Assembly (NCBI RefSeq): GCF_030317205.1
Contig: NZ_JASZYB010000003.1
Span: forward strand, 682,001 to 746,000
Reading direction: 5' to 3'
DNA from: Variovorax sp. J2L1-78
GTDB lineage: Bacteria > Pseudomonadota > Gammaproteobacteria > Burkholderiales > Burkholderiaceae_C
DNA: 64,000 bases
The position numbers and the translations under genes were made by a program. Shown one piece after another: positions 54,036 through 57,362 of the stretch (within the stretch, counting starts at the first letter, position 1; each line of letters begins with the position of its first letter). The notes beneath the pieces were generated by a model. The model did not search any database. It had not been told where the DNA came from and saw nothing but the letters and a program-made list of their open reading frames with translations.

Positions 54036-55496
54036 ATGATCTCCCGCGAACCCACCATCGAACGCCTCGCCACGGCGCAGGCGTTGCTGCTCACGCCTTT
54101 CGGACTCGACGAGTCCCACCTCGGCAAGGCGCTCGCCGAGATCAAGGCCCACCAGGTCGACGACGCCGACCTCTACTTCCAGTACACGCGCAGCGAGGGC
54201 TGGAGCCTGGAAGAGGGCATCGTCAAGACCGGCAGCTTCAGCATCGACCAGGGCGTCGGCGTGCGGGCGGTGAGCGGCGAGAAGACGGCCTTCGCCTACT
54301 CCGACGACATCTCCGAGGCCTCGCTGCTCGACGCGGCGCGCACGGTGCGCGCCATCTCGTCGGCCACGCGCGGCGGCCGGGCCAAGGTGCCGACGCGCAA
54401 GATCGCCTCGAGCCGCTCGCTCTACAACGGGGTCGACCCGATCTCCACGCTCGACAGCACCGCCAAGGTCAAACTGCTGGAAAAGGTCGAGCAGCTGGCC
54501 CGCAGCCGCGACCCGCGTGTGGCGCAGGTCATGGCCGGCCTGGCCAGCGAATACGACGTGGTGCTCGTGGCGCGCGCCGACGGCACCCTGGCGGCCGACG
54601 TGCGTCCCCTGGTGCGGCTGTCGGTGACGGTCATCGCCGAGCAGAACGGTCGGCGCGAGATCGGCTCCGGCGGTGGTGGCGGGCGCTTTGGCCTGGCCTA
54701 CTTCGACGACGAGCACATCGCCGAGTACGTCGACCACGCCGTGAAGGCCGCGCTGACCAACCTGGAGGCACGGCCCGCGCCGGCCGGCGAGATGACCGTC
54801 GTGCTCGGTTCCGGCTGGCCCGGCATCCTGCTGCACGAAGCCATCGGCCACGGGTTGGAGGGTGACTTCAACCGCAAGGGCTCGAGCGCGTTCTCGGGCC
54901 GCATCGGCCAGCGCGTGGCGGCCAAGGGCGTGACGGTGCTCGACGACGGCACCATCGCCGACCGCCGCGGCTCGCTCAACGTCGACGACGAGGGCAACGC
55001 CAGCCAGCGCAACGTGCTCATCGAGGACGGCATTCTCAAGGGCTACATCCAGGATTCGATGAACGCCCGCCTGATGGGCGTGAAGCCCACCGGCAACGGC
55101 CGCCGCGAGAGCTACGCGCACGTGCCGATGCCGCGCATGACCAATACCTACATGCTGGGCGGCGACAAGGACCCGAAGGAGATCGTCGCGAGCATCAAGA
55201 AGGGCTTGTACGCCACCAACTTCGGCGGCGGCCAGGTCGACATCACCAGCGGCAAGTTCGTCTTTTCGGCGAGCGAGGCCTACTGGGTCGAGAACGGCAA
55301 GATCCAGTACCCGGTCAAGGGCGCGACTATCGTCGGCAACGGCCCCGATGCACTGACCCGTGTGACCATGATCGGCAACGACATGGCGCTCGATTCCGGC
55401 GTCGGCACCTGCGGCAAGGAAGGCCAGAGCGTGCCGGTGGGTGTGGGCCAGCCGACGCTGCGCATCGACGGCCTCACCGTTGGCGGCACCGCCTGA
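54036..55496 (+). CDS. tldD: Metalloprotease TldD
   Basis: A 486-residue zinc protease that, with TldE/PmbA, cleaves unfolded peptides and processes modified peptides such as microcin B17 and CcdA. The HExxxH motif is in LLHEAIGHGLEGDFNRKGSSAF; DADLYFQYTRSEGWSLEEG and RESYAHVPMPRMTNTYM are family blocks, and the C-terminus has VGTCGKEGQSVPVGVGQP. Length matches E. coli (481). The partner tldE gene is not in this window. The transcript is followed by the DAHP synthase leader. Confidence 0.95.
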   Translation: MISREPTIERLATAQALLLTPFGLDESHLGKALAEIKAHQVDDADLYFQYTRSEGWSLEEGIVKTGSFSIDQGVGVRAVSGEKTAFAYSDDISEASLLDAARTVRAISSATRGGRAKVPTRKIASSRSLYNGVDPISTLDSTAKVKLLEKVEQLARSRDPRVAQVMAGLASEYDVVLVARADGTLAADVRPLVRLSVTVIAEQNGRREIGSGGGGGRFGLAYFDDEHIAEYVDHAVKAALTNLEARPAPAGEMTVVLGSGWPGILLHEAIGHGLEGDFNRKGSSAFSGRIGQRVAAKGVTVLDDGTIADRRGSLNVDDEGNASQRNVLIEDGILKGYIQDSMNARLMGVKPTGNGRRESYAHVPMPRMTNTYMLGGDKDPKEIVASIKKGLYATNFGGGQVDITSGKFVFSASEAYWVENGKIQYPVKGATIVGNGPDALTRVTMIGNDMALDSGVGTCGKEGQSVPVGVGQPTLRIDGLTVGGTA

Positions 55497-55532
55497 CGCC
55501 CTGGCGCAACGCGCATTTTCCGAAACCCGTGC

Positions 55533-55538
55533 TACATT
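55533..55538 (+). promoter_or_regulatory. Candidate -10 box of the DAHP synthase leader
   Basis: TACATT ends 8 nt before the leader peptide ATG. No clear -35 was found 16-18 bases upstream. A start here would give a transcript that begins almost at the leader start codon. Confidence 0.45.
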
Positions 55539-55546
55539 CGCCCCTC

Positions 55547-55621
55547 ATGTCGCAACACGCCGCTTTCTATTTTTCGTACTTTTGGTTCCGGATCTCCGGC
55601 GGCCTAGAGGCGAGCGCGTAA
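55547..55621 (+). CDS. Aromatic leader peptide of the DAHP synthase attenuator
   Basis: A 24-codon frame ATG to TAA encodes a peptide in which residues 7-14 are FYFSYFWF: four Phe, two Tyr and one Trp codon within eight. Such a run does not occur by chance in ordinary coding, and the frame ends 23 bases before a terminator stem in front of an aromatic pathway gene. Charged tRNA(Phe), tRNA(Tyr) or tRNA(Trp) shortage would stall the ribosome on codons at 55565-55588. It is the sensing element of an attenuator like pheL or trpL. Confidence 0.85.
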   Translation: MSQHAAFYFSYFWFRISGGLEASA

Positions 55622-55651
55622 GACAAACTTACACCCTCCAAAGACCGCCGG
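55596..55651 (+). promoter_or_regulatory. Predicted antiterminator of the DAHP synthase leader
   Basis: CCGGCGG at 55596-55602, inside leader codons 17-19, is identical to the 3' arm of the terminator and can pair with its 5' arm CCGCCGG (55645-55651). A ribosome stalled on the aromatic codons leaves this copy free to form the antiterminator; one that reaches the stop codon covers it, letting the terminator fold. Confidence 0.75.
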
Positions 55652-55675
55652 CGCTCACGCCCCGGCGGTTTTTTT
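55644..55675 (+). terminator. Attenuator terminator upstream of DAHP synthase
   Basis: ACCGCCGG and CCGGCGGT form an 8-bp stem around a 10-base loop, followed by seven T residues counting the last stem base (55669-55675). It lies 42 bases before the DAHP synthase start and is the only full intrinsic terminator near an upstream start in this window. Confidence 0.9.
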
Positions 55676-55717
55676 ATGCCCTTTTGATCCCCGAACCCTA
55701 GACCCAGGAGCCGCACG

Positions 55718-56836
55718 ATGACCCATCCCTCCGCCCCCACCAGCGACAGCTGGTATGCGCGCGTCGAAAAAACCAGCGAAACCGACGACGAACGCATCAA
55801 GGACATCAACGTGCTTCCCCCTCCTGAACATCTGATCCGCTTCTTCCCGATCCGCGGCACCGCCGTGGAGACGCTGATCACCGGCACCCGCCGCAACATC
55901 CACAACATCATGGCCGGCAGCGACGACCGGCTGCTGGTGGTGATGGGGCCGTGTTCGATCCACGACCCGGCGGCCGCGCTGGAGTACGCCCGCCGCCTCA
56001 AGGTGCAGCGCGACAAGTACGCCGATTCGCTGGAGATCGTGATGCGCGTGTACTTCGAGAAGCCGCGCACCACCGTCGGCTGGAAGGGGCTGATCAACGA
56101 CCCGTACCTGGACGAGAGCTTCCGCATCGACGAAGGTCTGCGCATCGCGCGCCAGCTGCTGATCGACATCAACCGCATCGGCCTGCCGGCCGGCAGCGAG
56201 TTCCTCGACGTGATCTCGCCGCAGTACATCGGCGACCTGATCAGCTGGGGCGCGATCGGCGCGCGCACCACCGAAAGCCAGGTGCACCGCGAACTCGCCT
56301 CGGGCATCTCGGCGCCGATCGGCTTCAAGAACGGCACCGACGGCAACATCCGCATCGCCACCGATGCCATCCAGGCGGCGGCGCGCGGCCACCATTTCCT
56401 GTCGGTCCACAAGAACGGCCAGGTCGCGATCGTGCAGACCAACGGCAACAAGGACTGCCATGTGATCCTGCGTGGCGGCAAGGCGCCCAACTACGACGCC
56501 GCAAGCGTGGCGGCCGCCTGTCGCGATCTGGAGGCCGCCAAGCTGCCGCCGACCTTGATGGTCGACTGCAGCCACGCCAACAGCTCCAAGCAGCACCAGA
56601 AGCAGATCGAGGTGGCGCAGGACATCGCGGGTCAGATCGCCGGCGGCAGCCGCAACGTGTTCGGCGTGATGGTCGAAAGCCACTTGAGCGCCGGCGCCCA
56701 GAAGTTCACGCCGGGCCAGGACGCGATCGGCAATCTGGCCTACGGGCAGAGCATCACCGACGCCTGCCTGGGCTGGGACGATTCCACCGCCGTGCTCGAC
56801 ACGCTGTCGCAGGCGGTGAAGCGCCGCCGGGGTTGA
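55718..56836 (+). CDS. aroG: 3-deoxy-7-phosphoheptulonate (DAHP) synthase, class I
   Basis: A 372-residue enzyme joining phosphoenolpyruvate and erythrose-4-phosphate, the first step to Phe, Tyr and Trp. The AroF/G/H-type N-terminus DDERIKDINVLPPPEHLIRFFPI is present, with MGPCSIHDPAAALEYA (substrate loop), EKPRTTVGWKGLINDP (KPRT), GARTTESQVHRELASG, KNGTDGNI and DCSHANSSKQ (metal site). AGGAG precedes the ATG. The symbol aroG is by family; which amino acid inhibits it cannot be read with certainty. The attenuator upstream links expression to aromatic amino acid supply. Confidence 0.94.
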   Translation: MTHPSAPTSDSWYARVEKTSETDDERIKDINVLPPPEHLIRFFPIRGTAVETLITGTRRNIHNIMAGSDDRLLVVMGPCSIHDPAAALEYARRLKVQRDKYADSLEIVMRVYFEKPRTTVGWKGLINDPYLDESFRIDEGLRIARQLLIDINRIGLPAGSEFLDVISPQYIGDLISWGAIGARTTESQVHRELASGISAPIGFKNGTDGNIRIATDAIQAAARGHHFLSVHKNGQVAIVQTNGNKDCHVILRGGKAPNYDAASVAAACRDLEAAKLPPTLMVDCSHANSSKQHQKQIEVAQDIAGQIAGGSRNVFGVMVESHLSAGAQKFTPGQDAIGNLAYGQSITDACLGWDDSTAVLDTLSQAVKRRRG

Positions 56837-56858
56837 TCGCTCTCGGCGCGATGCTCGC

Positions 56859-57362
56859 TCAGATGAGCCGGGCGAGTTCGGGCCAGTGGTGCCGCAGGAG
56901 CGCGGCCTCGTCGCTGCCATCGGGCATCAGCGAGAAATCGGCGAAGTCGAAGCCCGGGCCGACCATGCAGGCGGCCAGCGCGTAGTCGCCGCTGGTGTGC
57001 GTGGCGATCGGCTCGGCCGCCTGCCACTGGCCGGCCGGCACCACATGCTGGGGGCGTGTGCCATGCGCATCGACCGGCCCGAGCCGCGTGTGCGCCGGCG
57101 CGGTGCGCCATGCCGCGTCGGCGGTCCACAGGGTCAGGGGCGCGCCTTCCAGATACACCCACACCTCGTCGGACACGACGCGGTGCCAGCGCGAATGCTG
57201 GCCGGTTTCGAGCAGGAAATAGATGCTCGTCATCGCGGAGCGCGCGGGTCGGCCATCGGCAGGCGTGACGTGCGCGACCGAGCGGAACACCTCCCGGTAC
57301 CAGCCGCCTTCCGGATGCGGCTGCAATTCGAGGGTCTCGATGAGTTGCCGCACCCGCGTCAT
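56859..57362 (-). CDS. DUF985 cupin protein
   Basis: A 167-residue protein of the DUF985 cupin family. LIETLELQPHPEGGWYREVFRS opens it, TSIYFLLETGQHSRWHRVVSDEVWVYLEG is the central cupin strand set with the HRxxSDE block, and HVVPAGQWQAAEP with YALAACMVGPGFDFADF close the barrel. The reaction is unknown. Its ATG overlaps the mpl stop (ATGA), so it is translated from the mpl transcript. It is convergent with DAHP synthase (22-base gap). Confidence 0.9.
   Translation of the reverse strand: MTRVRQLIETLELQPHPEGGWYREVFRSVAHVTPADGRPARSAMTSIYFLLETGQHSRWHRVVSDEVWVYLEGAPLTLWTADAAWRTAPAHTRLGPVDAHGTRPQHVVPAGQWQAAEPIATHTSGDYALAACMVGPGFDFADFSLMPDGSDEAALLRHHWPELARLI

Follow-up and report, generated by a model that had tools for sequence, protein, structure and literature searches.

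A putative ribosome-mediated attenuator with an aromatic leader peptide ahead of the DAHP synthase gene aroG in Variovorax and other Burkholderiales

The first shikimate step is a main control point for aromatic compounds, and the locus described here raises the question of how the gene for that step, aroG, could be tied to the supply of phenylalanine, tyrosine and tryptophan in Variovorax sp. J2L1-78. In E. coli the step is carried out by isoenzymes repressed by TyrR and TrpR (PMC11802643, PMC5343134), aroF and aroH being described as under these two regulators in the available text of PMC11802643. We analysed a window of 64 kb (the whole stretch of 64,000 nucleotides considered here), in which a sequence-only reading had noted an aromatic leader peptide and a terminator in front of aroG. 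The well-known pheL, trpL and hisL leaders are ribosome-mediated attenuators. We place the aroG leader in the same class, as a ribosome-mediated transcription attenuator, with a probability of about 0.92, and the comparative analyses below suggest that the cell very probably makes more DAHP synthase when it is short of aromatic amino acids. If so, many members of the order have, in front of a single gene, an RNA switch that could read three end products together.

Anatomy of the leader region

The features of the locus are collected in Table 1. The sequence-only reading had described a 24-codon frame with four Phe, two Tyr and one Trp codon among codons 7-14, an 8-bp GC stem with seven T residues 42 bases ahead of the aroG ATG (counted from the end of the T run), and a second copy of CCGGCGG inside the leader frame, and all of this proved exact in the sequence. 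Its designation of the downstream gene as aroG-type also stands, the product matching TIGR00034 at E 1.7e-161. This is the sole AroFGH-type DAHP synthase detected in the genome, in which no class II enzyme (PF01474) was found, and the nearest named relatives of the protein belong to Variovorax (90% and 89%) and Xenophilus (89%). We also observed a small perfect hairpin, GTAAG-ACAAA-CTTAC at 55618-55632, which overlaps the leader stop codon within the antiterminator loop.

Table 1. Coordinates of the features at the aroG leader, in window positions.
Feature	Position	Strand	Basis
Promoter element of extended -10 type, TGcTACATT, separated from the leader ATG by 8 nt	55530..55538	+	sequence
Leader ORF, 24 codons + TAA, MSQHAAFYFSYFWFRISGGLEASA (ATG 55547-55549, TAA 55619-55621, read directly)	55547..55621	+	sequence; start predicted leaderless
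Control codons 7-14, Phe Tyr Phe Ser Tyr Phe Trp Phe	55565..55588	+	sequence
Segment 2, CCGGCGG, repeating the terminator 3' arm	55596..55602	+	antiterminator partner of 55645-55651
GAGG, second antiterminator helix, 5' side	55607..55610	+	covariation
CCTC, second antiterminator helix, 3' side	55635..55638	+	covariation
Segment 3, CCGCCGG, common to antiterminator and terminator (5' arm)	55645..55651	+	covariation
Intrinsic terminator, 8-bp stem closed by A55644-T55669, 10-nt loop, seven T (55669-55675)	55644..55675	+	sequence, covariation, fold z-score
Terminator 3' arm, CCGGCGG	55662..55668	+	sequence
AGGAG, Shine-Dalgarno sequence of aroG	55706..55710	+	sequence; anti-SD duplex energy
aroG, DAHP synthase (AroFGH type), putative regulated gene	55718..56836	+	TIGR00034 match

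The density of aromatic codons is exceptional for this DNA. Seven such codons within eight occur at a single place on both strands of the 64 kb, and among 50 windows generated by a first-order Markov model, one strand of each being scanned, none reached six per eight. A degenerate pattern of the run's codons had one match in the 5.69-Mb genome and none when reversed as a control. Folded in isolation, the terminator stretch reaches -22.8 kcal/mol (z = -5.48, equalled by 0 of 200 shuffles) and the antiterminator stretch -23.3 kcal/mol (only z = -1.96, equalled by 7 of 200), and when the whole leader is folded alone (z -3.97) the terminator is formed and segment 2 is paired locally. A simple consensus scan of the window returned neither a terminator nor a promoter, the former being missed because loops were limited to 3-8 nt and the actual loop has 10, the latter because a -35 match was required and the element here is an extended -10.

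Conservation before aroG and spread within the order

Among 80 named loci, the best of at least 590 AroG relatives, inspection of the best short ORF placed an aromatic leader ahead of aroG in 67, spanning relatives in Comamonadaceae, Burkholderia and Oxalobacteraceae. Each has a short ORF with an aromatic run, a terminator with a GGCGG arm and then aroG; 66 of the 67 have at least five aromatic residues per ten codons, and one (L028) has four. The components seen in the window, from the leader frame with its aromatic codons to the terminator and the duplicated arm, thus recur ahead of aroG in relatives rather than being absent there. The sequence-only reading had kept to Comamonadaceae, where the leader is indeed present, yet it is found as well in Burkholderia, Oxalobacteraceae and further families. 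No leader was seen in the other 13 named loci (L018, at a contig end, L034, L036, L037, L038, L039, L052, L054, L058, L059, L068, L073 and L081), which include Polynucleobacter and Cupriavidus. The AroG proteins of two Cupriavidus loci (L034, L037) and three Polynucleobacter loci (L036, L038, L039) that are without a leader are 74-78% identical to that of the window.

These loci also bear on a rival account, in which the hairpin is merely the transcription terminator of the upstream gene tldD and the leader ORF is fortuitous. The gene, whose product matches the TldD model, ends at 55496 in the window, and tldD lies in the fetched upstream flank of 50 of the 67 leader loci. The remaining 17, however, have no tldD match in a flank of up to 1.5 kb, and four loci (L036, L038, L039, L081) have tldD and no leader. 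Since leader and tldD occur independently, we rejected a plain tldD terminator. The duplication of the terminator arm within the leader and the conservation of aromatic codons across families also count against it, and we consider this account to be close to negligible.

Typical leader peptides are FYFxYFWF in Comamonadaceae types, MSAKFYFYFFWHLKPLADREG in Burkholderia types and FFTGYFYFSNSNPKAVE in Oxalobacteraceae types. With the window included, 52 of 68 leaders hold Phe, Tyr and Trp, 14 hold Phe and Tyr, and two hold Phe alone; in a set of 110 leaders Tyr occurs in 106 and Trp in 77. TTT accounts for 0.65 of the Phe codons in leaders vs 0.16 in the aroG genes that they precede, and this locally rarer codon would fit a slow, stall-prone run. 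TnaC and SecM are examples of nascent-peptide arrest, and the YFWF(S) core conserved in many Comamonadaceae-type leaders could likewise suggest that the peptide itself, and not tRNA charging, stalls the ribosome. We find this very improbable, as the peptides differ widely among families (FYFYFFWH, FFTGYFYFS, HSFYAFFGFFAWYW, YFFWFWYP), the shared trait being aromatic richness. The N-terminal run, ahead of the GGCGG core, is kept as aromatic codons across leaders. The core itself lies in the three reading frames in 60, 39 and 3 of 102 leaders, and the C-terminal part is therefore kept as RNA and not as peptide. One leader, in Candidatus Burkholderia humilis (L064, about 1311-1443), is frameshifted in the aromatic run when set beside related leaders, and its ORF continues through the terminator, which looks like decay of the regulation.

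A covariance model built from the 67 leaders and run on 399 genomes of the order (Burkholderiales) matched 133 of them at E up to 0.001, many weak matches being to the terminator only. At E < 1e-5 there were 102 matches outside the source genome, and of these 39 were fetched, hand-picked across families. All 39 precede an AroG gene and 38 show an ORF with at least four aromatic residues per ten codons. Among weaker or partial matches, four full-length ones (L119-L122, E 3.5e-5 to 6.5e-4), two partial ones in other genomes (L117, L132) and two weak places in the source genome (L094/L126 and L095) were dismissed, with no AroG match within the fetched 1.4-3.1 kb; one further full-length match (L123) is before aroG and shows no aromatic ORF.

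We also drew a sample independently of the model: of 121 genomes of the order in which AroG was detected, 60 were examined ahead of their best AroG match, and a leader had to show at least five aromatic residues in eight codons. A leader was present in 17 of the 60, distributed over 12 of the 35 families sampled, and was not seen before the examined AroG in the other 43. Outside the order it was present in one of 40 sampled genomes, of 106 bearing AroG, and none was found on the reverse strand of these 100 regions, used as control. Neither genome set is strictly random: the sample left out two genomes (G036, G057), and the 40 outside genomes were chosen in part by the order of their handles and in part from the first entries among the matches. 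As one AroG per genome was considered (the best, or in G022 the first of a tandem pair), leaders ahead of further AroG copies may have escaped notice. With no leader seen at 13 of the 80 named loci or before the examined AroG in 43 of the 60 sampled genomes, we conclude that the element is widespread but patchy in the order.

Several individual loci deserve mention. In the outside genome (G410, locus L203, of another order) a single aromatic leader, ARFYRWYYFPKPPAEEG, is convincing; it has its own terminator and a copy of GGCGG before aroG. In G022 (L101, L153) two AroG-type genes stand in tandem with an aromatic leader ahead of the first, and in G152 a full-length model match lies, by its position, ahead of the first of two tandem AroG-type genes; judging from this arrangement, one attenuator may serve two tandem isoenzymes in both genomes. 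G158 has an AroG of 76% with no model match nearby and a second AroG of 64% with one.

Antiterminator pairing and the predicted position of the ribosome

The sequence-only reading had raised the possibility of a mutually exclusive antiterminator between segments 2 and 3, and had named covariance folding as a check. The comparative data favour such a pairing. Terminator arms vary by group (CCGCCGG, CCGCCAG, CCGCCT, CCGCCC) and the leader copy often changes along with the arm, to AGGCGG in L078 and L082, to GGGGCGG in L032 and to CTGGCGG in Burkholderia types. In an alignment of 67 rows, with relatedness not fully corrected, the covariation score was 0.101 for the antiterminator vs 0.044 shuffled and 0.133 for the terminator vs 0.059 shuffled. 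Antiterminator cells changed on both sides numbered 17 vs 5.4 shuffled, and 11 of the 67 rows are unpaired at a single variable inner position of this helix (column 67 with 147). In all 107 leaders whose terminator was detected (of 110, those of L025, L100 and L179 being undetected), the terminator 5' arm pairs better with its own leader than with a shuffled version of it, the mean score being 18.9 vs 12.3 for shuffled leaders and 17.0 for arms of other species, again with relatedness not fully corrected; in this test one locus (L113) has an arm of only 4 bp, and L203 was assigned an incorrect position.

A second helix, absent from the sequence-only reading, adds to this. Just 3' of GGCGG lies a purine-rich stretch, with GAGAGG within 12 nt in 49 of 98 leaders, and it pairs with bases slightly upstream of segment 3, the pairs taking the forms GAGG/CCTC, CGAGA/TCTCG, AGGGA/TCCCT, CTGG/CCAG, TGGAGT/ATTCCA and CGGG/CCCG. 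Permuting partners 5000 times gave the smallest possible value, p = 0.0002, for 101 leaders and again for the 49 Comamonadaceae types, and p = 0.024 for 21 leaders of other families; the pairing was not significant in 14 Oxalobacteraceae types (p = 0.09) or in 16 nearly uniform Burkholderia types (p = 0.41), group labels having been assigned by hand. These bases take no part in the core of the terminator stem, and the second helix therefore lends the antiterminator independent support. So strong a conservation of RNA segments outside the codon run could also point to a protein- or ligand-dependent terminator (a riboswitch, a T-box or a TRAP-like element) in which the ORF is incidental. The conserved segments are, however, accounted for by the two antiterminator helices, and in a comparison with Rfam 15 no family reached its gathering score at the 20 named loci examined (of 80), while window positions 54500-57000 had four matches, all below it, so that we hold such an element to be highly improbable.

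We propose that the attenuator would work as follows. RNA polymerase would start at or beside the leader AUG, with a ribosome translating the leader behind it. Were charged Phe-, Tyr- or Trp-tRNA scarce, the ribosome would stall within codons 7-14 and free segment 2 and GAGG, which would pair with CCGCCGG and CCTC as these emerge; with the antiterminator in place the terminator would come too late and aroG would be transcribed. With the three tRNAs all charged, the ribosome would pass onto segment 2, CCGCCGG would then pair with the terminator 3' arm, and transcription would end in the T run.

The position of the codons is consistent with this scheme. Assuming that 15 nt are protected downstream of the first base of the P-site codon, a stall would leave the GGCGG core free for 666 of the 704 aromatic codons in 102 leaders, that is for 411 of 444 Phe, 183 of 186 Tyr and 72 of 74 Trp codons. 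For the window itself, a stall at any aromatic codon but the last Phe, codon 14, would leave CCGGCGG entirely free; with the ribosome at the stop codon GAGG would be covered, and CCGGCGG probably only in part. The distance from GGCGG to the stop codon varies from 1 to 32 nt among leaders.

Folding predictions for 68 leaders (segment 2 being picked wrongly in L066, and the frameshifted L064 being given a substitute stop position) place the antiterminator above a probability of 0.5 in 65 when the ribosome is stalled in mid-run and segment 4 is not yet made, and form the terminator in all 68 when the ribosome is at the stop codon. For the full RNA at equilibrium with a stalled ribosome, the mean probability of the terminator is 0.78 (1.0 in the window) and the antiterminator exceeds 0.5 in only 14 of 68. 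As the terminator is favoured at equilibrium despite the stall, the model needs kinetic, co-transcriptional folding. No general 1:2 (pause or protector) hairpin was found: N-terminal pairing was significant in 12 of 62 leaders, mostly Burkholderia types, and local 1:2 pairing was no better than shuffled (12.24 vs 12.30). A TCCGCC/GGCGGA match is seen in most Burkholderia-type leaders, and we have not taken the 1:2 hairpin as obligatory for the class.

Which amino acids are sensed is a separate matter. The leader could be an attenuator that is in effect a sensor of a single amino acid, mainly Phe, to which the Tyr and Trp codons add little. Of the three, Phe alone is found in all 110 leaders, 76 of which have the full set, and the Phe-Tyr-Phe leader AroR of C. 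glutamicum answers to limitation of Phe and not of Tyr (PMC11802643, available text). The frequent Tyr and Trp codons speak against it, however, nearly all of them being so placed that a ribosome stalled there would leave the GGCGG core uncovered, and we regard a mainly Phe-dependent sensor as rather unlikely. We would tentatively go further, at a little less than even odds, and view the attenuator, free of a Shine-Dalgarno sequence, leaderless and patchy but widespread in one order, as a three-input OR gate: any shortage of Phe, Tyr or Trp would raise a single DAHP synthase, the gate would replace the TrpR control of enteric bacteria, and the terminated RNA and the peptide would be free to act elsewhere. 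No member of the Trp repressor family was found in the Variovorax sp. J2L1-78 genome. The same genome has nine matches to PF02954 (TyrR-type helix-turn-helix), so a TyrR-like regulator may be encoded there.

A probable leaderless start and comparison with known systems

Promoter placement and the start of the leader mRNA are an addition, absent from the sequence-only reading. The best -10 box of Comamonadaceae-type loci ends 6-9 nt ahead of the leader ATG in 44 of the 45 examined, and the extended TGn form, mostly TGcTACATT, is found in 43 of these 45 boxes. None of these 45 has a good Shine-Dalgarno sequence at the leader, in that none reaches an anti-SD duplex of -6 kcal/mol; by comparison, 35 of 66 aroG starts reach -6 kcal/mol or better, a figure tilted in favour of aroG because several candidate starts were compared and the best one kept. 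In the window the duplex is -6.6 kcal/mol at aroG, likewise the best of candidate starts, vs +0.6 at the leader. Given the -10 box 6-9 nt before the ATG and the lack of a good Shine-Dalgarno sequence, the leader mRNA is probably leaderless in the Comamonadaceae-type group to which the window belongs. Across 110 leaders a -10 box lies at 5-10 nt in 64, of which 56 are extended. The best boxes are farther off in Burkholderia types (33-54 nt) and Oxalobacteraceae types (25-45 nt), and a good Shine-Dalgarno sequence at the leader was found in 0 of 13 and 0 of 10 of these, respectively.

The sequence-only reading had also known of no described Phe/Tyr/Trp leader on this gene in Comamonadaceae. In a literature search covering mainly the main text of openly accessible papers, we found no published description of this aromatic aroG leader for proteobacteria, and an aromatic leader before a DAHP synthase gene is known in C. 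glutamicum. The available text of PMC12125101, PMC8632094, PMC2659441, PMC7298713, PMC11802643 and PMC4046766 does not describe one in proteobacteria, that of PMC5343134, on the TrpR and TyrR regulons, mentions no such leader, and the main text of PMC2965389, as far as available, contains neither aroG nor DAHP. The main text of PMC5688073 lacks aroG, DAHP, leader and aldolase; the 82 short 5'UTR transcripts of B. cenocepacia in its supplementary table could include aroG.

The closest parallels lie elsewhere, and the idea of an aromatic attenuator for DAHP synthase, being known in C. glutamicum, is therefore not new to biology. The AroR leader, or aroF attenuator, of that species reportedly goes back to Neshat et al. 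in 2014. According to the available text of PMC11802643 AroR attenuates a DAHP synthase operon, and the aroF attenuator was also predicted in PMC4046766. Like the aroG leader, AroR is an aromatic leader peptide before a DAHP synthase gene, with transcription going up on a stall, as proposed for the aroG leader; unlike it, and compared by description only, AroR belongs to an actinobacterium and no Trp is mentioned in the available text (PMC11802643). The uORFC-13-1 motif before aroF in Acholeplasma, a predicted uORF with Phe and a terminator, shares with the aroG leader the combination of uORF and terminator before a DAHP synthase gene, and differs, again by description only, in its 24 representatives (Acholeplasma and environmental), its RBS and its minimum of at least one Phe (PMC8632094, available text).

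Attenuation of E. coli aroF was reportedly treated by Camakaris in 1980. Attenuation of aroF/aroH has been proposed for E. coli and Shewanella, with no aromatic leader of the present form described in the available text (PMC2659441). In S. meliloti the rnTrpL attenuator RNA begins at the leader ATG and is leaderless, and the predicted transcript start of the aroG leader resembles it in this; rnTrpL/peTrpL differs in being a Trp leader before trpE(G) whose terminated RNA and peptide act in trans (PMC7298713, available text).

The aroG leader offers a simple setting for asking how a sensor based on ribosome stalling weighs several amino acids, and it lets attenuation be studied on a probably leaderless mRNA. 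With trpL, pheL and pheM of Enterobacteria it shares control codons and an antiterminator and terminator built from shared arms, whereas those leaders each concern a single amino acid and precede different genes. In trpL a 1:2 hairpin is common and clear, and there is a Shine-Dalgarno sequence, while the aroG leaders have no general 1:2 hairpin and no good Shine-Dalgarno sequence. Within the known class of attenuators the aroG leader is thus unusual in that it combines codons for all three aromatic amino acids with a start that is probably leaderless and an occurrence in many families of one order.
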